Source: a candidate division Zixibacteria bacterium HGW-Zixibacteria-1
GTDB lineage: Bacteria; Zixibacteria; MSB-5A5; GN15; PGXB01
NCBI GenBank assembly: GCA_002838945.1
Contig: PGXB01000024.1
Span: 4,930 to 62,972 of the forward strand
Direction: 5' to 3'
DNA length: 58,043 nucleotides
Shown here piece after piece: positions 846 through 58,037 of the stretch; position 1 is the first letter of the stretch; every line of letters begins with the position of its first letter. A program made the translations under genes and the position numbers. The notes under the pieces are model-generated. The model searched no databases and was not told the DNA's origin. It saw only the letters and a program-made list of their open reading frames with translations.

Positions 846-983
846 GCCTGCAGACAATTATCAAGCTTATGTTTGAATTGGAAAACGATAATTAGCTTTT
901 TTGAATAGTACTCTTTTGTGGTGATTTGAATATTTTTAGCGTAAAACTATCTATCGCCCACCCAATCATTCAATTATGTCCAT

Positions 984-1009
984 ACCCGACAAAGGGTCGG
1001 GTTGTTTTC
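984..1009 (+). terminator. Possible terminator hairpin after the antiporter gene
   Basis: ACCCGAC (984-990) pairs with GTCGGGT (996-1002), followed by a short interrupted T stretch. It lies in the 318-base gap 846-1163, which otherwise shows only AT-rich sequence and the promoter at 1074-1101. Confidence 0.4.
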
Positions 1010-1073
1010 CGGATTCCACGAAAAATCAAGTTTTGGCATGGCTTGTATCTCCCTGTATTCTTGTTAATCGGGC

Positions 1074-1101
1074 TTGACAATTGAAAGTAAAGCGGTATAT
1101 C
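1074..1101 (+). promoter_or_regulatory. Promoter for the MarR-GNAT / S41 unit
   Basis: TTGACA at 1074-1079 and TATATC at 1096-1101 with a 16-bp spacer. The expected start is near 1108, about 55 bases before the ATG at 1164. No clear MarR-type palindrome was seen beside it. Confidence 0.55.
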
Positions 1102-1163
1102 TTAACGCTCACAAATTGACTTGCCAGAAGTTTGTAACCGAAGTTAAAGTATAGGAATATCTT

Positions 1164-2156
1164 ATGGATATTGTTAAGCAGCTCGGTATATTGGCTTTCG
1201 GGAGTCGTCTCAAGAGATTCACCGAGAGACTGATGAGAGATGTTTCTCGAATATATCGGGAGCAGGATATCGACTTTGAGGCCCGCTGGTTCCCGGTCTT
1301 TTATCTTCTTAAGCTGGAATCAGACATGGCCATTACTGAAATTGCTGCGACTCTGGGAATGACCCACCCGGCGATAAACCAGATTGCCGGAGAAATGTCG
1401 CGTGACGGTTTGATAATTTCGGTCAAGGATAAAAATGACGAACGGCGAAGGCTGCTCTCCCTGTCGGCCAGGGGGCGAGCTATGGTTCCCGCCCTTGAGC
1501 TGCTCTGGCAGGACATTAGCGACGCTACCAATGAGATCCTTGAGGAGGGTGATGCCGGTTTTCTTGAATCGGTTGACCGGATGGAAAACGCTCTTGACCA
1601 GAAAGAGCTGTATGATCGGATAACGGCGAGAATTAAGGTGCGCCAGTACGAAGCGATAAGAATTATTGAGTTTGAGTCCGGCCTGGAGAAACATTTCAAG
1701 GCGCTTAATTATGAGTGGCTGGAAAAATATCATCATGTCGAACCCGCCGATAAAATACTCCTCGATGATCCTCAGGGCAAGATCATAGCCAGGGGGGGAT
1801 GGGTGATTTTTGCCAGGCTGGATGATAAAGTGGTAGGCACAGGAGCCTTGATCAAACATGATGATCTGACATATGAGATCGCCAAGATGGCCGTTACGGA
1901 AAAATTGAGGGGGCGGCAGGCAGGGAAAAAATTAACCTGCGCATTAATTGACCGGGCGCTGGAAGTCGGCGCCAAAAGAATATTCCTTCAAACCAACCCC
2001 AATATGATTCCGGCCATCTCGCTTTACAGGAAACTGGGTTTTGTCGATTGTGGGGATATTGTTCCGCCCCGATATGAGCGGGAGTCGCTGACAATGATAT
2101 TAAATTTAAAAGATACAAAGTTGAGAGAAAAGGAAGATGAAAAGAGAAACGTATAA
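1164..2156 (+). CDS. MarR-family regulator fused to a GNAT acetyltransferase
   Basis: A 330-residue two-domain protein. Residues about 1-150 form a MarR winged helix: DIDFEARWFPVFYLL, then MAITEIAATLGMTHPAINQIAGEM as recognition region, then the wing DKNDERRRLLSLSARG. Residues about 160-315 are a GNAT domain: the substrate-side helix, the beta-4 strand YEIAKMAVTEKLRGRQAGKKL, which matches the acetyl-CoA-binding 'Q/RxxGxG/A' turn (RGRQAGKK), and ISLYRKLGF near the end. MarR-GNAT fusions are a known arrangement in which a small-molecule-responsive DNA-binding domain is joined to an N-acetyltransferase. The natural acceptor is unknown. The 3' end overlaps the next gene by 20 bases, implying translational coupling. 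Confidence 0.85.
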   Translation: MDIVKQLGILAFGSRLKRFTERLMRDVSRIYREQDIDFEARWFPVFYLLKLESDMAITEIAATLGMTHPAINQIAGEMSRDGLIISVKDKNDERRRLLSLSARGRAMVPALELLWQDISDATNEILEEGDAGFLESVDRMENALDQKELYDRITARIKVRQYEAIRIIEFESGLEKHFKALNYEWLEKYHHVEPADKILLDDPQGKIIARGGWVIFARLDDKVVGTGALIKHDDLTYEIAKMAVTEKLRGRQAGKKLTCALIDRALEVGAKRIFLQTNPNMIPAISLYRKLGFVDCGDIVPPRYERESLTMILNLKDTKLREKEDEKRNV

Positions 2157-3510
2157 AGCCGCCGCAAAAAGATTCATTACGATAGCACTGTTTGGGCTGT
2201 TGCTGATTCCTGTAACCGGAGAAATCGTCAGGGCTCAAATATCGCAGACGGAAGAAAGGGAAATTACTGCGGCCATTCAGGCCGAAATCATCGACAGCTT
2301 CAGTGCCGCGCTGAATGAGATATATGTCTTTCCCGATGTAGCCAAAAAAATGGAAAAACACCTTCGCAAAAGACTCAAGGAAAAGGCCTATGACGATAAA
2401 AAAACGCCGGGTGCTTTTGCCGATGCGCTGACCACTGACCTGCAGGAGATAAGCAAAGACAAGCATCTTGGGGTACGGCAAGTCACCCCTGAATTTGTAG
2501 AAAATTATCTTGGTGATACGCTGACGGATGACGCCAGGGAAGAAGATCTTCGGAGAAAAGAGTATAAGAATTTTGATTTTATCAAAGTCGAGCGCCTGAA
2601 CGGCAACGTCGGTTATTTGAAATTCAACAGTTTTGAGGAGGCCGAAACCGGAGGGGCCACGGCGGTGGCCGCCCTTAATTTTCTGGCTCATGTCGATGTA
2701 TTAATAATCGACTTGCGCGATAACGGGGGCGGCGAACCCAGTATGATACAATTGATAACGAGTTATTTTTTCGATTATCCGGTACATCTGAACAGTTTCT
2801 ACATTCGCCAGTTGGATTCCATCCAGCAATTCTGGACACAGGCTTATGTCGAAGGCCCAAGAATGAGCGATGTCGATCTCTAAATCCTGACCAGCAATTA
2901 CACTTTTTCCGGGGCCGAGGAGTTTTCATACAACCTGAAGAACCTTGGGCGGGCGACAATCATCGGCGAAACCACCGGCGGCGGCGCCCACCCGGTAGCG
3001 ACGCGCATTTTTCCAAATCTGTTGGTTTTGGCCAGGGTCTCTTATGGAAGGGCCATTAATCCGATTACAGGGACCAATTGGGAAGGTGTCGGTGTGAAAC
3101 CGCATATCGAGGTCGCCGCCAGTGAAGCATTCGATGTGGCCTATATCGAGGCATTGAAAAAGTTGAAAGAAAAGGCTGGTGAAGAGGGGAGGGCCTTCAC
3201 TCTGCAATGGGCCATTGACGGCTTGGAAGCCAAACTTCATCCGATTACAGTGGAACCGGAGAAACTGACAAGCTGTGTCGGCGTCTATGGTCCCAGAGTT
3301 ATAACGTTCGAAAACGGTTTGCTTTATTATCAGCGTGAGGAACGCCCCAAAATGGTTTTGACACCTATGGCTGAAGATTTATTTATGGTCGGAGATATTG
3401 AATATTTCAGGATAAGAATTGTCAGGGATAATGATGGTCGTGCAATTGCCCTTGATGGCATGTATGACAACGGGAATATAGATAATTCGCTTCGATCAGA
3501 CGGCAAATAA
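2137..3510 (+). pseudogene. S41-family (C-terminal processing peptidase / IRBP-like) secreted peptidase, interrupted by an in-frame TAA
   Basis: A signal peptide (KRFITIALFGLLLIPVTG) is followed by an N-terminal S41 helper domain (SAALNEIYVFPDVAKKMEK) and the core strand VLIIDLRDNGGGEP. Codon 249 (2881-2883) is TAA. Without any frame change the homology resumes at once with ILTSNYTFSGAEEF, which carries the S41 nucleophile Ser, then ATIIGETTGGGAHP and a C-terminal domain ending at 3510. In relatives this site usually reads like 'vYVLTSxxTFSGgEe', so TAA probably replaced a Tyr codon (TAT/TAC). The first ORF alone (248 residues) lacks the nucleophile and should be inactive. A base-calling error or stop readthrough are the alternatives. 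Confidence 0.85.
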
Positions 3511-3529
3511 TTAGTCTTGGAACTTTCGC

Positions 3530-3570
3530 CGGCGGGTCGGAAATAAATTAATTCAGCCCGCCGTTTTTTT
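3530..3570 (+). terminator. Intrinsic terminator after the S41 gene
   Basis: CGGCGGG (3530-3536) pairs with CCCGCCG (3557-3563), a 20-base AT-rich loop lies between them, and seven T residues follow at 3564-3570. The 3571-3819 stretch after it is AT-rich, with no gene seen. Confidence 0.8.
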
Positions 3571-3802
3571 GATTTTTTATTTATTTTTCAATAATCGCTC
3601 TATAAAATCGTAATGATTATGAATAGATTATTTTGAACAAATGGCCGTTGATTGAAGTCCGCCGCGCGCGAATAGCGGTTTGGACAATAAGTCAATGCCG
3701 TTCAAATAATTAGCGACAAATTCAAAGATTAATATATCCACGGGCATCTTAGAAGAGTTAAAAAAAGTATAAATGTGGGAACAAAAACTGTAAACTAACG
3801 GT

Positions 3803-50101: not shown

Positions 50102-51901
50102 CTAGGCCCCGACCACTTCCTCTTCGAGCCGAAAACGACGATATATCCTGGCGTAATGACCTTCCCGCGCGACCAGTTCAAAATGTGTTCCTGATTCGGC
50201 AATCATGCCATTTTCCATGACATATATCATGTCGGCCTGCTCGAGAGTGTCCGGGCGATGTGTGACCAGAATGGCGGTCATATCCGGCATCACTTCGTGA
50301 AGCCTGTCCCAAAGGGCCGCTTCGGTCCGCGAATCCAGCGCCGAGGTGCAATCGTCGAGAATTAATATTCTCGGTTTCCCAACCAGCGCCCTGGCCAGGG
50401 CCAGACGCTGCTTTTGCCCCCCCGAGATCGACATCCCGCGCGTTCCAATCGGCGTTTCGATTCCCTTGGGAAACGTCCCGATCTCTTCTTTCAACTGCGA
50501 CACCTCGATCGCCCATTCCAGCAGGATATCCGAAATGTCTTTGCGGCCGAAAGTGATGTTGTTGCGAACGGTATCACTGAACAGGACCGGTTCCTGCGGG
50601 ACATAGCCGATTATACGGCGCAGATCCTCGAGACGGTATTCCCTGAGATCATGACCATCGAGCCTGATGACGCCCCCGGTCGGATCGACCAGGCGCGGGA
50701 TCATATTGGCCAGCCAGCTCTTTCCAGAACCGACTTTGCCAACCAGAGCCACCGTCTGACCCGCCTTAATATCGAATGACACACCATCGATAATCCTGCG
50801 CTCCGAACCGTCAAACGCCAGAGAAATCTTCTCGAAACTGAGATCCCCCTTCGTTTCACCGTTGCAGGGGAGGGTCCCCTTGTCCGCCACCATCGGAGGC
50901 ACATTTTCAAGTTCCATCAAGCGGTTGATCGAAACCGTCGACTGGCGCGATTTCACCAGAAACTGCCCGATGTCGAACATGGGGAAAATCATATATACGA
51001 CATAGTATATGAATGCAACCAGTTTCCCCATCGACAGATTTGAGTGTATGGCCATATATCCACCCGACAGAAGGACAATCAGAATTCCAAACTGCCAGAT
51101 GTACATATATATCGAATCCACAATTGTCGTTGCCTTGATCGAGGAAATCTCGGCATCGCGCCGCTCATGCACCGCTTTGTCGAATTTGCCCTTTTGGGCC
51201 TTTTCCTTGACATAGGCCTTGACGACCCGAATGCCGTAAAAACAGGCCTCCATCACATCATTCAGGACCGATATCTTTTTCTGGAGGAAATCGTATCTCT
51301 TATCGAGATGCGATGAACTCTTAAAAAAGATCAATATCAGAATCGGCAGCGGTCCAGCCGACAACAGTGTCAGCTTAGGATTGATCGAAACCATCATGGC
51401 CAGCGCAAAACTTACCATGATAACCGCCTCATAAAACCTGAATATGCCGGAGCAGGCGAACCACGACAACTTCTCCGCCACATCATCGGTCATACGCGTC
51501 ACCAGGTCGCCGGTCCGGAACTTGTTAAAAAAGTCCGGCCCTTTATCGGTGATGCCGTTGAAGGCATTTTGCCGAAACAGCCATTCCAGCTTGATATTCA
51601 TCCAGGCCCGGTGCGACTGCACGAAAGTGTAAAGCATGCTGGCGGCGAATCCGATCCAGATAAGTGCCAGCATGAAGGTCGCCTCCGTCGAGAGGCCCAG
51701 CGTCTGGCCGTAATTGTTCAGCCATACCGCCACTTCATTGTCCGATACTTTGCCGCTCTTTACATAATCGACCATGAATTCGATCAGCCTCGGTATCGAA
51801 ACCTGAAAAGCCGCCTGAACCGGTGTCAGCAGGATAAGGACCGCCAGAACATATTTATAGTCTCTGTAATATTTCCAAAACCATTTTATCTTACTTAGCA
51901 T
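50102..51901 (-). CDS. ABC exporter subunit with degenerate Walker B (second gene; BmrC/D-type half)
   Basis: 599 residues. An N-terminal six-helix TMD is followed by an NBD with Walker A GKVGSGKSWLANMI, Q-loop GYVPQEPVLFSD, signature ISGGQKQRLALARAL, Walker B ILILDDCTSALD and H-loop LVTHRPDT. The catalytic Glu after Walker B is Asp (LDDCTS), as in the degenerate half of heterodimeric exporters. The start at 51901 is supported by GGGGTGG; ATG 51916 is also in frame and overlaps the first ABC gene. Its partner is encoded just upstream. Such heterodimers export drugs or lipids. Confidence 0.9.
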   Translation of the reverse strand: MLSKIKWFWKYYRDYKYVLAVLILLTPVQAAFQVSIPRLIEFMVDYVKSGKVSDNEVAVWLNNYGQTLGLSTEATFMLALIWIGFAASMLYTFVQSHRAWMNIKLEWLFRQNAFNGITDKGPDFFNKFRTGDLVTRMTDDVAEKLSWFACSGIFRFYEAVIMVSFALAMMVSINPKLTLLSAGPLPILILIFFKSSSHLDKRYDFLQKKISVLNDVMEACFYGIRVVKAYVKEKAQKGKFDKAVHERRDAEISSIKATTIVDSIYMYIWQFGILIVLLSGGYMAIHSNLSMGKLVAFIYYVVYMIFPMFDIGQFLVKSRQSTVSINRLMELENVPPMVADKGTLPCNGETKGDLSFEKISLAFDGSERRIIDGVSFDIKAGQTVALVGKVGSGKSWLANMIPRLVDPTGGVIRLDGHDLREYRLEDLRRIIGYVPQEPVLFSDTVRNNITFGRKDISDILLEWAIEVSQLKEEIGTFPKGIETPIGTRGMSISGGQKQRLALARALVGKPRILILDDCTSALDSRTEAALWDRLHEVMPDMTAILVTHRPDTLEQADMIYVMENGMIAESGTHFELVAREGHYARIYRRFRLEEEVVGA

Positions 51902-53702
51902 TGACAACCACCCCATTTCTGTTTTTGAACTGTAAATGGAACAGTTTTGAATAATAGCCGTTTTTTAAAATCAATTCCGTATGGGTTCCGCGCTCGATAA
52001 TTTCGCCGCGCCGAATCACCAGAATCTCATCGACATCGAGAATCGTCGAGAGCCGATGCGCTATCACCAGCGAGGTCCGCCCGGCCATAAGTTTCCGGAG
52101 CGATTCCTGGATAGTCCGCTCGGTTTCCGGGTCAACCGAACTGGTGGCCTCATCGAGCACCAGCACGTCAGGGTCAACCGCCAGAGCCCGCGCAAACGAA
52201 AGCAGCTGCCGTTCGCCCCGGCTGAAATTGGCGCCCTTCTCGGAAACCTCGGTCTCGAAACCCTTGGGCAGCCGCCCGATAAACTGATCGGCCTGCACGG
52301 TGGCCGCGGCTGATTTCACGCTCTCTTCGCTGATATTTTCCGATTCCAGCGATATATTGGACTTCACGTCGCCGGGGAAGAGGATTATATCCTGCAGCAC
52401 CAGCGCAAACCGCCGGCGAAGTTCATCACGGCTGATATTGCGAATATCGATGCCGTCAACCAGAATCCGCCCCTTTTGCGGATCGTATAACCGAAGCAAC
52501 AGTGATATCACCGTGGACTTGCCGCCGCCGGTAACACCCGCCAGGGCGATCCGTTTGCCGACCGGGATCTCGAAATTGGCATCCTTCAGCGCCCAGTTTT
52601 CGTCGCCGGTGTACGAGAACCAGACATTCTCGAACCGGATACTCTTTTCGAGTTTCTTCCACTCGACCGGCTGCGCCGGATCATATATGACCTGCTCGGT
52701 TGCGAGCAGCGCGAATACTCGCCTGGCTCCCGCAATGCCCTTCTGAATTGTCGACAACTGCTCCGAAGCGCGCCAGATCGGGTCGAATGTCCGCCAGATC
52801 AGGATGATGAACATGCCGATCGTCCCGACCGTTATCGTGCCCGACTGAACCCACTTGACACCGAAATACAGAGTCAGTGCAATCATCAGGTACTGGAAGA
52901 AAAAGACGGTGTTGAAGAAAATACATACGCCGATATTGACGAAAACATCATCCTTGAACTTCGCCTCGTTGGCCCGGTAAACCTGCTCGCGGGCATAGGC
53001 CCCGCGGTGAAATATCTGAATAATCGACATCCCATGCAGGAACTCGGCCAGCTTCGCGGTAACCTCGGCCATTTTCTTGCGCACCTCGAAAAAGCGGGGA
53101 GTGGTGATCTTCTGGAAGATGTACATAAGCGTCGCCACCACAGGAACAATCACTATCAGGATCGAGGCCAGTCTCCAACTGTAATAGAACATGATGCTGT
53201 AAATGCCGGCTATCAGAATCAAATCACCGATTACCAGCACGACCGTGTTGGTGAACAGCATCCTGAGCGATTCGGTGTCCGATTCCACCCGCGCCATCAG
53301 GCGTCCGACCGGATTCTTGTCGAAAAACGACACATCCAGCGACAAAATATGGTTAAACAGTTTTCGCTTGAGATCGACCATTATATTCTGGCCGATGGTC
53401 TCCAGCTTGATTCTCTGTATATATTGCAGCGTCAGCGTCGTCAACTGTATCAGGCCGATCGCTCCGACCGTAATCAGAAGTCCCTTGAAATCGCCGTCTT
53501 TTATATTAACATCCAACGCCCGTTTCAGCAGGATCGGCCAGGAAATCGATAGAAGTGTCCCGCCGGTCAACAGGAACAGGCAAACCAGCAGGCCGTGCCG
53601 GTGGACGCGTAGAAGCGGAAGCAATTTGGCGAAAGCCATGCGCGATTTTATCGCTTTCTCTTCCGGCTTTATCTTTTCGTCTTCGTATAATTCGCCAATC
53701 AT
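51891..53702 (-). CDS. ABC exporter subunit with altered signature motif (first gene; BmrC/D-type half)
   Basis: 603 residues. TMD helices occupy roughly residues 30-330. NBD: Walker A GVTGGGKSTVISLL, Q-loop LVLQDIILFPGD, signature FSRGERQLLSFARAL, Walker B VLVLDEATSSVD (catalytic Glu kept), H-loop VIAHRLST. The canonical LSGGQ is changed to FSRGE. Paired with the partner's LDDCTS, this builds one degenerate and one canonical ATP site, the hallmark of TM287/288 or BmrCD-like heterodimers. It overlaps the second ABC gene. It is preceded by a leader ORF and terminator. Confidence 0.92.
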   Translation of the reverse strand: MIGELYEDEKIKPEEKAIKSRMAFAKLLPLLRVHRHGLLVCLFLLTGGTLLSISWPILLKRALDVNIKDGDFKGLLITVGAIGLIQLTTLTLQYIQRIKLETIGQNIMVDLKRKLFNHILSLDVSFFDKNPVGRLMARVESDTESLRMLFTNTVVLVIGDLILIAGIYSIMFYYSWRLASILIVIVPVVATLMYIFQKITTPRFFEVRKKMAEVTAKLAEFLHGMSIIQIFHRGAYAREQVYRANEAKFKDDVFVNIGVCIFFNTVFFFQYLMIALTLYFGVKWVQSGTITVGTIGMFIILIWRTFDPIWRASEQLSTIQKGIAGARRVFALLATEQVIYDPAQPVEWKKLEKSIRFENVWFSYTGDENWALKDANFEIPVGKRIALAGVTGGGKSTVISLLLRLYDPQKGRILVDGIDIRNISRDELRRRFALVLQDIILFPGDVKSNISLESENISEESVKSAAATVQADQFIGRLPKGFETEVSEKGANFSRGERQLLSFARALAVDPDVLVLDEATSSVDPETERTIQESLRKLMAGRTSLVIAHRLSTILDVDEILVIRRGEIIERGTHTELILKNGYYSKLFHLQFKNRNGVVVNAK

Positions 53703-54505: not shown

Positions 54506-55060
54506 CTATATCACTCCCCGTGCCTTGAGAGTGTCGATGAACTCCCCGACTACTGTTTCCAGATGCTTCTTATAATCGTCGTCTTTATAAACCGGTTCAA
54601 TCGTTTTGATATATGGCCCGTCTTGAGCGGTCAACTCATTAAGCCGGGATATGACCTCCGGAGTATATTCATCATTGTCCCTGATGCTGTCCTCGATGCT
54701 AATATATTCATATCCCGTTTTAAGGGAATCATTGAAGCCATCGACACTCAATTCCACCGAATCGCCGGGTGCAGTCTCGATCTTGAGGATAACATCTTCG
54801 GTAAGATTAATCCCATTCGCACTGAAAACCGAATCCACCACCTCCCGCGCTTCGTTCTCGGTCACCATACCCGGCGGAATGGGGGGAGGCCCGGCGATTC
54901 CGTTACCAATGCACCCGATGTTTTCAAGCGCCGTGATGATGACCGCCGCCCCCAGGCCATATTTGACGATATTTTCATGCATCGCCGGTATCCGGCGGTA
55001 AAAGTAATATTTCGGATACCTGGCCCGGTTATATTTGGCTATTCGTTCGTGCTTAAGCAT
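54506..55060 (-). CDS. Radical SAM-associated protein, second paralogue (candidate modified substrate)
   Basis: 184 residues, not recognised. It shares a plan with its neighbour at 55070: basic/aromatic N-terminus (KYNRARYPKYYFYRR), a hydrophobic stretch (VKYGLGAAVIITALENIGC), the GPPPIPP motif, MVTENEAREVVDSVF, VDGFNDSLKTGYEYISIED, and an EFIDTLKARGVI end. It follows the first paralogue by 9 bases and is convergent with the 54296 gene. With the radical SAM gene it forms a three-gene unit. It may be a modified substrate or a partner protein; no function can be stated. Confidence 0.75.
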   Translation of the reverse strand: MLKHERIAKYNRARYPKYYFYRRIPAMHENIVKYGLGAAVIITALENIGCIGNGIAGPPPIPPGMVTENEAREVVDSVFSANGINLTEDVILKIETAPGDSVELSVDGFNDSLKTGYEYISIEDSIRDNDEYTPEVISRLNELTAQDGPYIKTIEPVYKDDDYKKHLETVVGEFIDTLKARGVI

Positions 55061-55069
55061 GGCTCGTAC

Positions 55070-55642
55070 CTAAATTATCCCTTCCGATTTTAAGGAATCT
55101 ATAAAGGATTCTACCGTTTGTTTGATTTTCATTTGGTAATCTTCGCTCTTTGATTGAGGATCAATAATTAAAATATTCGGTCTTTCAGTTCTTTTGGGAC
55201 CGGTAAGTTCTGCCCTTACCTGATAATCAATCTCACCTGGATCTTCAATGCCCAAATATTCATAACCAACATCGAGTCTGCTATCAAACCCGTCCAGAAC
55301 CAGTCGTCGGCTATCACCATTACTCAGGACAAAATTGATCTCAAAATCAGGTTCGAGTTTTATATTTTCCTCTTCAAAAATATGATTGATTACCTCTCTG
55401 GCTTCATTTTCTGTTATAAATTCCGGAGCCATTGGCGGCGGTCCCATAACGCCGACTCTATTTAATCGCATGCCGGTTTTTGACGAGCAATCCAAATCGC
55501 ACCCCTCAAACAGCGCCAGAATTGAAAATGCGATTGGTGAGTATTTCAACAATAGCTCCAACTTACCCAGCGGTTTTTTATAGTAAAACTCCTTTGGATA
55601 TTGCGCCAACCTGTAACCGTCAATCCTGGCTATTCTGAGCAT
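55070..55642 (-). CDS. Radical SAM-associated protein, first paralogue (candidate modified substrate)
   Basis: 190 residues, not recognised. It has GYRLAQYPKEFYYKKP, a hydrophobic segment (LLLKYSPIAFSILALF) with a Cys-rich stretch CDLDCSS, then GPPPMAPEFITENEAREVINHIF, VLDGFDSRLDVGYEYLGIED and an ESFIDSLKSEGII end. RBS GGGAGG is present before ATG 55642. It overlaps the end of the radical SAM gene by 23 bases, so translation is coupled to the enzyme. The pairing suggests the protein is modified by, or works with, that enzyme. Much larger than usual RiPP precursors. Confidence 0.78.
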   Translation of the reverse strand: MLRIARIDGYRLAQYPKEFYYKKPLGKLELLLKYSPIAFSILALFEGCDLDCSSKTGMRLNRVGVMGPPPMAPEFITENEAREVINHIFEEENIKLEPDFEINFVLSNGDSRRLVLDGFDSRLDVGYEYLGIEDPGEIDYQVRAELTGPKRTERPNILIIDPQSKSEDYQMKIKQTVESFIDSLKSEGII

Positions 55643-56798
55643 TGGTCCCTCCCGGGGAAATCATACAGTCCTCAATATATGACGAAATAGCGAATGATTT
55701 ATCATAAAATTTTCGACGGAATAATTCAACATTTTTTTTCCACAGGCGGGAAGCGGTCCGGTCCACAATCGGCATCAGCATCCGCTCATGCTCACAGATA
55801 ATCGGCGGTATTTGATTTAACTGCCCGGTGGCGCGCCAGTTAACACAGCCGCAATATGTTGCGCAGCGCCCGTTAAGGGCGCACTCACGGCAGGTCTCTT
55901 TTTCCATATAATTCTGCTCGATATAATAGGCCCGTCGCGTTTTATCAAACCCTGTGAAAACATCGCCGATGCCATTGTCCCTCTGTTTTTCATCATCGTT
56001 TCCGACAAACTGCACACAGGGATAAATCTGTCCCGAGGCGGCAATGGCGATCTGCGAATTAGCCAGGTCGCACAGATCGCCTTTACCGTATGGTTTCTGC
56101 GCCCAGGTTTTGATCCGCTCGTCGAACGGGCTGTAATATATTTTGTGCCCTTTTTTCAACTCCTCGAAATAATAGCCGGCCATTTCTTTGTACTGCCGTT
56201 TCAGGGCCGCGATATCTTTCTTTTTCCAAACAGCGGAGTAGTCGAGGGTTTGAAGCACATACCTGAATCCGTGCTCGAAAAGGCTTTTCACCCCTTCGGC
56301 CAGATATTGCACCGTTTCCGGGACAATAACCGACACCGCGATAGTGTAGGGATTGATTGCGAGTATATCCGCCAGTTTGCTGGTGATAATGTCGTAGGAG
56401 CCTCTTTGATCGGCATAATGCCGGACCGCGTCATGCTGCTCTTTACCGCCATCGATACTGAGTACGAAAAAGATTTTGTTTGCGGCCAGATATTCCAGCT
56501 TCTTTTTGTCCAGCAAAGTGCCATTGGTGCTCATCCGGAAGGCGAGCGCCTCACCGTATTCAGCCTTGGAATACTTGATGATTTTTTTGATAAGATTGAA
56601 CTCCAGAAGCGGTTCACCGCCGAAAAAAGTGATAATACATTCCCCGCCCGATTGACTGTGCAAAAAGTCCAGCGCCCGGCAGGCGGTCTCATAAGTCATC
56701 CGATTCTTTATCTTATCCCCGGCATAGCAGTAGCGACAGCGCAGATTACAATTGTGAGTCAGGCAAAGAGCGGCATATTTGACCGTTTGGAATTCCAT
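55620..56798 (-). CDS. Radical SAM/SPASM peptide-modifying enzyme
   Basis: 392 residues from the ATG at 56798 (the open frame begins with TTG 36 bases earlier). The radical SAM cluster is Cys17-x3-Cys21-x2-Cys24 in THNCNLRCRYCYAG, followed by FFGGEPLLEF and MSTNGTLL. The C-terminal SPASM part has CDLANSQIAIAASGQIYPC, then CRECALNGRCATYCGC and CEHER, giving ligands for auxiliary 4Fe-4S clusters. SPASM enzymes usually modify peptides (thioether, C-C or epimerisation). The downstream genes are translationally linked paralogues, candidates for its substrate. A minus-strand TTGATA-TATATT promoter sits right at the start, so the mRNA may be leaderless. Confidence 0.88.
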   Translation of the reverse strand: MEFQTVKYAALCLTHNCNLRCRYCYAGDKIKNRMTYETACRALDFLHSQSGGECIITFFGGEPLLEFNLIKKIIKYSKAEYGEALAFRMSTNGTLLDKKKLEYLAANKIFFVLSIDGGKEQHDAVRHYADQRGSYDIITSKLADILAINPYTIAVSVIVPETVQYLAEGVKSLFEHGFRYVLQTLDYSAVWKKKDIAALKRQYKEMAGYYFEELKKGHKIYYSPFDERIKTWAQKPYGKGDLCDLANSQIAIAASGQIYPCVQFVGNDDEKQRDNGIGDVFTGFDKTRRAYYIEQNYMEKETCRECALNGRCATYCGCVNWRATGQLNQIPPIICEHERMLMPIVDRTASRLWKKNVELFRRKFYDKSFAISSYIEDCMISPGGTNAQNSQD

Positions 56799-56804
56799 AT
56801 ATTT

Positions 56805-56834
56805 AATATAGTCGATCCTTACAGGAAATATCAA
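56805..56834 (-). promoter_or_regulatory. Promoter of the radical SAM unit
   Basis: On the minus strand, TTGATA (56834-56829), an 18-bp spacer and TATATT (56810-56805). Transcription would start at or next to ATG 56798, giving a leaderless or nearly leaderless mRNA. Confidence 0.4.
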
Positions 56835-57131: not shown

Positions 57132-57182
57132 TGCCGCCGTAAGAATATATATATATCGGGCCGCCGGGCCCGGGAATCCTAT

Positions 57183-57256
57183 GCCCCCGTAGCTCATTAG
57201 GATAGAGCATCTGCCTTCTAAGCAGAGGGTAGCAGGTTCGAATCCTGCCGGGGGTA
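57183..57256 (+). tRNA. tRNA-Arg (anticodon TCT)
   Basis: A 74-nt cloverleaf. Acceptor GCCCCCG pairs with CGGGGGT (57249-57255), D-arm GCTC/GAGC, anticodon stem TCTGC/GCAGA with loop CTTCTAA giving anticodon TCT (reads AGA/AGG), T-arm GCAGG/CCTGC with TTCGAAT. The discriminator is A57256; CCA is not encoded. Confidence 0.97.
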
Positions 57257-57348
57257 TTTTAATTACTACCGGACAACGACTTCCAGCGATTACTCCCACG
57301 TTAAAACGAGGCCAAAAAGGCAAAAAGGGCCTCTGACTAGGAGAAGTC

Positions 57349-57792
57349 ATGGAAGATCATCTAAAGCGACTTTACGAATTGGTCGATGAATTTAAGGTGG
57401 GATCAAACTGGAAGACATACGTCGATGCGTTTGTCTTCGGCTGCAAGATTAGGAACTTGGCACCACGCACGCTCAACGTCTATGCAGAGCGTCTCGGATA
57501 TCTCATCCGGTACCTCGAAGCAAAAGGCATCGACATAGAGAGCATTACGAAGCAGGGCATTCAAGACTACCTGCTCTCGCTGATTGGCAACGTTTCGGAC
57601 GAAACGGTCAACGGCCGAATACGCGTCTATCGCCGCTTCTTTAACTACCTCGAGGAAGAAGGTCTCTGGGACAAGCCGAATCCGACACATAAGATCAAGA
57701 TGATTAAAGCGGAAAAAAGAGTCAAACAGGTTCTCTCCCCGGAACAAATTCAAACTGCCTTACAAACTCTTAATAAAAAAACTTATGAAGGA
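57349..57792 (+). pseudogene. Tyrosine recombinase (phage-type integrase), 3' part lost
   Basis: Residues 1-148 match the SAM-like core-binding domain of tyrosine recombinases (FVFGCKIRNLAPRTLNVYAERLGYLIRYLEAKG, IRVYRRFFNYLEEEGLWDKPNPTHKIKMIKAEKRV, LSPEQIQTALQTLNKKTYEG). Normally the catalytic domain with R-H-R-Y follows, but after KTYEG the frame turns into unrelated sequence (LSGRQMWTSAAQ) to its stop at 57996. The gene is cut by an insertion or rearrangement near 57793. It lies 92 bases after tRNA-Arg, the usual position of an integrase using the tRNA as attachment site. Confidence 0.8.
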
Positions 57793-57800
57793 TTAAGTGG

Positions 57801-57824
57801 GCGGCAGATGTGGACATCTGCTGC
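57801..57824. repeat. Inverted repeat at the integrase breakpoint
   Basis: GCGGCAGATGT (57801-57811) and ACATCTGCTGC (57814-57824) are inverted repeats with one G-U/T mismatch around a GG centre. It starts about nine bases after integrase homology ends, so it may mark the junction of an inserted element. Confidence 0.55.
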
Positions 57825-58037
57825 GCAAAATAATAAGGAGCCGCTAATCATGAAAAATATCATAATCTATTCGGGTCGATTTTCAATGATTTGGGGGGGA
57901 ATATTATTCTTTCTTGCCTTATATCGAATCATTGATGATGTAATAGTGAAGTTCCCCCGATTTAGTGGACACGGAGAAAGGATACTATTATTATGATTCT
58001 TTCTCATCCTGAGTCCCGAAGGACAGGAGGTGTTCAG

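Follow-up and report, generated by a model that had tools for sequence, protein, structure and literature searches.

A radical SAM/SPASM enzyme of Zixibacteria and its adjoining, putatively exported partner proteins: a candidate protein-modification system

Introduction

To our knowledge, few radical SAM/SPASM enzymes modify proteins instead of short peptides, and a gene for a Cys-rich precursor beside the enzyme is usual for peptide maturases. The window analysed here, a stretch of 58,043 nucleotides from a Zixibacteria genome, encodes a radical SAM/SPASM enzyme followed by two related full-length proteins, and the question it raises is whether these proteins are the substrates of the enzyme and, if so, how they would be recognized, modified and exported. 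anSME and QhpD are established examples of SPASM enzymes with protein targets (PMC5682303), so a protein substrate would not by itself be a novelty. If the system works as proposed below, its export signal would lie inside the recognition segment, and such a minimal arrangement would offer a simple way of placing modified proteins at the surface or in the periplasm, and a clean model for how radical SAM/SPASM enzymes choose large substrates. It would also point to targets for new chemistry in phyla of which few members have been cultured, and genome mining restricted to short precursors would overlook such substrates.

The enzyme and the layout of the locus

The three genes lie on the reverse strand of the window. 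The enzyme (P0003, 392 residues; 55620..56798) starts at an ATG, with an open frame that extends past it to an alternative TTG start at 56834. The first partner, B1 (P0001, 190 residues; 55070..55642), overlaps the enzyme gene by 23 bases, and the second, B2 (P0002, 184 residues; 54506..55060), follows B1 after a gap of 9 bases, as described in an earlier sequence-only reading of this DNA. The same reading judged the two partners to be paralogues of about 30-40% identity sharing GPPP-x2-P, TENEAREV and C-terminal G(I/V)I motifs; alignment gives 34% identity (E 4e-28), which is far above chance, and all three motifs are present in both proteins. B2 is the more typical copy, while B1 is more diverged and departs from the consensus at N120-D121 and in the GPYIK segment.

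The radical SAM domain of the enzyme scores above the Pfam cut-off, and the radical SAM motif CNLRCRYC (residues 17-24; 56727..56750, reverse strand) is invariant in ten relatives. So are the seven canonical SPASM cysteines in the region from C243 to C335 (55794..56072, reverse strand), which follow the arrangement C243-x12-G-x4-C261; C303-x2-C306-x5-C312-x3-C316; C335. With both CX3CX2C and the CX9-15GX4C...CX2CX5CX3C...C pattern that defines the SPASM subgroup, the enzyme is a member of that subgroup of the radical SAM superfamily. The motif begins at residue 17, which leaves no space for a leader-binding domain (RRE) ahead of the enzyme core, and the Pfam and NCBIfam models gave no RRE match.

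Placement in a known family is less straightforward. The PapB, NlpM, SCIFF and QhpD models all give highly significant scores, yet far under their curated cut-offs. The best is PapB (NF047865), with 249.8 bits against a cut-off of 340, and every other maturase model scores lower, including QhpD (TIGR03906), with 144 bits against 453. Nor is the enzyme an anaerobic sulfatase-maturase, which the sequence-only reading had named as an identity that would speak against its proposal: the anSME model (TIGR03942) gives 87.5 bits against a cut-off of 349.

Distribution and co-occurrence

Relatives were found by a relative search, by profile searches and by one scan of species genomes. They comprise eleven further loci, from metagenome-assembled genomes labelled Zixiibacteriota/GN15, Cloacimonadota, Latescibacterota, Chitinivibrionia, Electryonea and Bacteroidetes, with the same adjacency of enzyme and partner. 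These are L006 (G004), L022 and L023; L007 (G042; GN15), which is on the same contig as L020; L019 (G097; Zixiibacteriota); L015 (labelled Cloacimonadota), with partners on both sides of the enzyme; L016 (Latescibacterota); L017 (Chitinivibrionia); L018 (Electryonea); L021 (Bacteroidetes), where the end of the contig truncates the partner; and the diverged L082 (G710), from the phylum group of the L015 genome, with two partners upstream of the enzyme. Counting the window, a partner adjoins the enzyme in 12 of 12 loci, and the gap, measured at ten complete junctions, lies between -32 and +1 bases. GN15 and Zixiibacteriota contigs recur among the phylum mates of the window and place it in that phylum.

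Presence across genomes follows the same pattern. In the window's phylum the enzyme, counted at a score of at least 700 bits, occurs in 6 of 132 genomes and a full-length partner in the same six, and the L015 genome's phylum has the two genes in the same 2 of 147. Only two partner-like matches lack the enzyme. One is a remnant in G087 (L013, C287:11784-12011), a partner gene that carries stop codons, lies close to where its contig ends and has no enzyme adjoining; genes resembling a type VI secretion cluster are found next to it. The other, in G080 (L014/L076; L076 5142-5854), is a lipoprotein homologous to the C-terminal domain of the partners, which lacks the long N-terminus and ends in a Lys/Glu-rich tail. 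Its 5.9-kb contig has no enzyme, and this is a single sequence on a contig that is possibly a contaminant of the genome bin. The coupling of full-length proteins to the enzyme thus has strong support, from the pairing in twelve independent loci and the reciprocal co-occurrence in two phyla, and the genome searches for both genes did not find the opposite pattern of partners living mostly without the enzyme, which the sequence-only reading had named as a refutation of its proposal. The tandem duplication of the partners, which had been put forward together with this coupling, holds for the window and not as a rule, most loci having a single partner.

Elsewhere the searches returned little. A sample of 395 Bacteroidota genomes gave one enzyme, the already known one whose partner is cut by the contig end. 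Viral contigs searched with enzyme and partner profiles contained other radical SAM families and no partner; phages and plasmids contained no partner relatives, the plasmid enzymes being NlpM, PeaB, freyrasin-type and others at about 25-32% identity. A weak match in G006 was noise. The system is thus found rarely and patchily among little-studied bacterial phyla, and the family databases and papers that we searched do not describe it.

Anatomy of the partner proteins

Searches of B1 and B2 against Pfam, NCBIfam, PHROGs and PDB sequences gave nothing significant, but the partners can be divided into four segments. The first, residues 1-33, is basic and carries Y10 and Y15-P16; it is a putative leader and signal n-region (B1, 55544..55642; B2, 54962..55060, both on the reverse strand). 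These three residues are unchanged even in the L082 partners, which are otherwise very different, and the partial L021 partner keeps Y15-P16 and apparently, by eye, has Arg at position 10. The second is a hydrophobic stretch of 13-17 residues that ends in G/A/S-Cys at positions 47-50 in 12 of 12 close relatives; in B1 it covers residues 34-48 (Cys48; 55499..55543, reverse strand) and in B2 residues 34-50 (Cys50; 54911..54961, reverse strand), with the Cys in a putative lipobox. A variable linker, frequently with GPPPxxP, leads to the fourth segment, an alpha/beta domain of about 110 residues predicted for B1 at residues 77-190 (55073..55414, reverse strand; about 90 pLDDT over most of it) and, confidently, for B2 at residues 67-184 (54509..54862, reverse strand; pLDDT 87, pTM 0.80). 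T77, E78, A81, R82, D117, G126-Y-E-Y129, D134 and P155 are invariant in twelve partners. Mean pairwise identity is 0.43 over residues 1-24 and 0.44 over the domain, and apart from the Cys it falls to 0.21-0.27 between them.

In bacterial lipoproteins a basic n-region precedes a hydrophobic stretch, and the lipobox Cys has G, A or S directly before it and small or hydrophobic residues at -3 and -2. The partners have the n-region, the stretch, G/A/S at -1 and the Cys, and this Cys keeps a constant distance from the N-terminus, not from the domain. The n-region is unusually long and the -2 position is atypical, with Glu, Asp or Gln in most partners and in 0 of 9 ordinary lipoproteins from these loci. 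In the L082 partners a site resembling that of signal peptidase I (VA-Q, TA-Q), and not Cys, comes after the hydrophobic stretch, with the leader positions kept. We dropped the idea that the Cys is absent from the L082 form, and hence purely a lipobox residue, because the L082 partners carry a Cys shortly before the domain, where no hydrophobic stretch precedes it. The basic n-region, the stretch that is short for a membrane span, the lipobox-like Cys and the Pro-rich linker after it suggest, at the level of sequence, that the partner is a lipoprotein with an unusually long n-region. This division into putative leader, signal-like segment and folded domain, which the sequence-only reading did not make, tells most about how the partner is built.

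The predicted domain has the element order alpha-beta-beta-beta-alpha-beta-alpha. PD-(D/E)XK nuclease-like folds are common among its top Foldseek matches, although none of the matches in the PDB is significant (none below 1e-3; best E 0.05, TM at most 0.54) and nothing significant was found among viral proteins. D117 and E128, invariant in the enzyme-linked partners, would fit such a fold, and the motif LDG(F/Y)N...GYEY may resemble the pattern of Vsr-like nucleases. In contrast, the conserved catalytic Lys is missing from its expected place, and a protein bound for export is an odd setting for a nuclease. As neither a significant structural match nor the D...(D/E)XK motif was found, we treat the resemblance of the predicted model to these nucleases as a weak lead only.

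Proposed mechanism and its alternatives

We infer from linkage and conservation that the partner is the substrate of the radical SAM/SPASM enzyme. The enzyme would itself recognize the partner by its conserved N-terminal segment and introduce a radical-made modification while the partner is still in the cytosol. The same segment would double as the long n-region of a signal peptide, so that the modified protein could be exported by Sec, after which signal peptidase II would cut at the lipobox-like Cys and remove leader and signal together; in the diverged L082 form, signal peptidase I may take this role. The product would be a modified alpha/beta domain, membrane-anchored or secreted. Cytosolic timing, export route and leader removal we infer as well. 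Taken together as a compact enzyme/substrate system with N-terminal recognition, cytosolic modification, Sec export and signal-peptidase processing, we put this reading at an even chance. The further idea of a type of system, dispersed among candidate phyla, in which a lipoprotein/Sec signal n-region serves as leader, a folded domain of about 110 residues takes the place of the 'core', and export itself removes the leader, with no need for a protease, transporter or RRE of its own, is more tentative and somewhat less likely than not.

Several observations point to the enzyme/substrate reading: the constant adjacency and co-occurrence of the two genes, the single clade formed by the enzymes with partners, while the nearest enzyme outside the family in the phylum adjoins a short Cys-rich peptide gene, the invariant Y10, Y15 and P16, the conservation of leader and domain, the hydrophobic stretch and Cys in all twelve close relatives, and the leaderless lipoprotein that occurs apart from the enzyme. 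This last protein has the domain and lacks the long n-region, with no enzyme beside it, which suggests that the conserved N-terminus serves the enzyme in the manner of a leader. The neighbourhoods of the loci share no transporter, protease or other gene, and the simplest account of why protease and transporter are not conserved is that the export machinery would remove the leader, which would also explain why no RRE match is shared. The reading is weakened by the atypical lipobox, by a weaker distance correlation when one pair of sequences is left out (see below), and by the leaderless comparison being a single sequence. As candidate modification sites we rank first the invariant domain residues (E80, D117, Y127/E128/Y129), next the Cys and the acid close to it, and last the leader. 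Since N120-D121 and GPYIK are missing from B1, the site may lie elsewhere; otherwise B1 would be modified in another way or escape modification.

The -2 residue is the main doubt, and it keeps alive a rival in which the apparent lipobox is itself the modification site, with a PapB/QhpD-type thioether joining Cys 47-50 to a nearby Glu or Asp in a protein anchored by its hydrophobic stretch or not exported. PapB is the nearest family by score, the Cys is present in all close relatives with an acid 2-4 residues ahead in most, the L082 partners retain a Cys before the domain, away from any hydrophobic stretch, and PapB tolerates widely varied spacings (Cys-Xn-Asp, n 0-6; PMC9413430). We nevertheless consider this rival unlikely: the spacing from Cys to acid is not fixed, no C-X3-[DE] occurs around Cys 47-50, several members have no acid within six residues downstream and three have none within seven upstream, and the Cys is held at a set distance from the N-terminus, as a lipobox would be, and not from the domain.

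The partner might also be an obligate accessory, acting as scaffold, electron donor or membrane tether, with the target of the enzyme encoded elsewhere. Its large, predicted folded domain is unlike most precursors of this enzyme class, and it is present once or twice, upstream or downstream of the enzyme. Such a role seems to us improbable, because the partners evolve much faster than the enzyme, an export-type segment would be needless in a helper of a cytosolic enzyme, partners were doubled independently, and no other gene is common to the neighbourhoods. More doubtful still is a signal-anchored membrane protein whose cytosolic N-terminal segment is itself modified, for example at Tyr10 or Tyr15. 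The Tyr and Pro of this segment are among the few invariant positions and the lipobox is atypical, but 13-17 hydrophobic residues are short for a membrane span and L021 seems to carry Arg for Tyr10. Finally, an ordinary maturase of a known family beside an unrelated gene pair is largely refuted and very improbable, since the highly significant PapB, NlpM, SCIFF and QhpD scores are all well under the curated cut-offs and the pairing with the same partner recurs at 12 loci from several phyla.

Comparison with known systems

PapA-type precursors are short and Cys/Asp-rich. PapB, QhpD and the anaerobic sulfatase maturases are the closest precedents for the proposed enzyme/substrate system. PapB (freyrasin type) resembles it in having radical SAM and SPASM domains, a similar length and a substrate encoded beside the enzyme, whereas the partners of the window family are folded proteins of 170-290 residues that lack conserved C-X3-[DE] motifs; the Cys-X3-Asp/Glu expected of PapB substrates occurs once, in isolation, in 14 partners (G042 Cys131). 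PapB is also reported to use an RRE (PMC9413430). QhpD/PeaB, also a SPASM enzyme, modifies a protein subunit whose gene comes immediately after its own (PMC5682303), but the window-family enzymes have no dehydrogenase subunit genes among their neighbours, and the partner is not a gamma subunit and does not have the cysteine pattern of one. anSME likewise acts on a full-length exported protein (PMC5682303), and here the difference is that the partners match no sulfatase model. Text searches of RiPP papers for radical SAM enzymes together with a lipobox, Sec or signal peptidase gave no such system, which is weak evidence, as few subscription journals and preprints were among the papers searched.

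Evolution of the system

All partnered enzymes, including that of L082, fall into a single clade (97/93). Few forks within it are resolved, and the enzymes from the window's phylum do not cluster there; lateral transfer of the system is plausible. Pairwise identities are 56-90% for the enzymes and 31-88% for the partners, so that the partners evolve much faster. The distances of enzymes and partners are correlated with r 0.86 (p 0.0006), or r 0.56 (p 0.025) once one near-duplicate pair is removed. Partners are doubled in the window, in L015 and in L082; in the partner tree the two L015 copies are close together, as are the two L082 copies, while B1 and B2 are not sisters, and for this reason the doubling seems, from these sequences, to have happened more than once. 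The nearest enzyme outside the family that was found in the window's phylum, at L038 (G111; 1480-3088), is a SPASM enzyme beside a precursor-like gene. This gene, upstream of the enzyme, encodes a 146-residue Cys-rich protein with repeated CxxC that looks like the precursor of a ranthipeptide or sactipeptide.

Neighbouring genes

The sequence-only reading saw no transporter nearby, and this has to be corrected: two overlapping ABC exporter genes (50102..53702), MsbA-like and probably a heterodimer, lie some 800 bp downstream of B2 and on its strand. We rejected this pair as the export route, as no other locus has such a pair. It is probably unrelated to the enzyme system, given that a terminator-like site intervenes between B2 and the exporter genes, of a kind no commoner than expected by chance, and that no relative has an adjoining pair. 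On the other side of the enzyme, at 57182..57996, a tRNA-Arg (TCT) is followed on the same strand by the N-terminal half of a tyrosine recombinase, which is broken off close to the end that the window shares with contig C24. This is probably where an integrated element begins that extends to the right and is outside the enzyme system.

Directly downstream of the partner in L022 (1-1467) and L023 (4102-5748), two genomes of one genus, there is a conserved large lipoprotein-like gene that was not seen at the other loci. Two adjacent SPASM enzymes are encoded at L039 (G107; 979-3677), where one frame continues, by eye, into an apparent signal-peptidase-type (S24/S26) domain.
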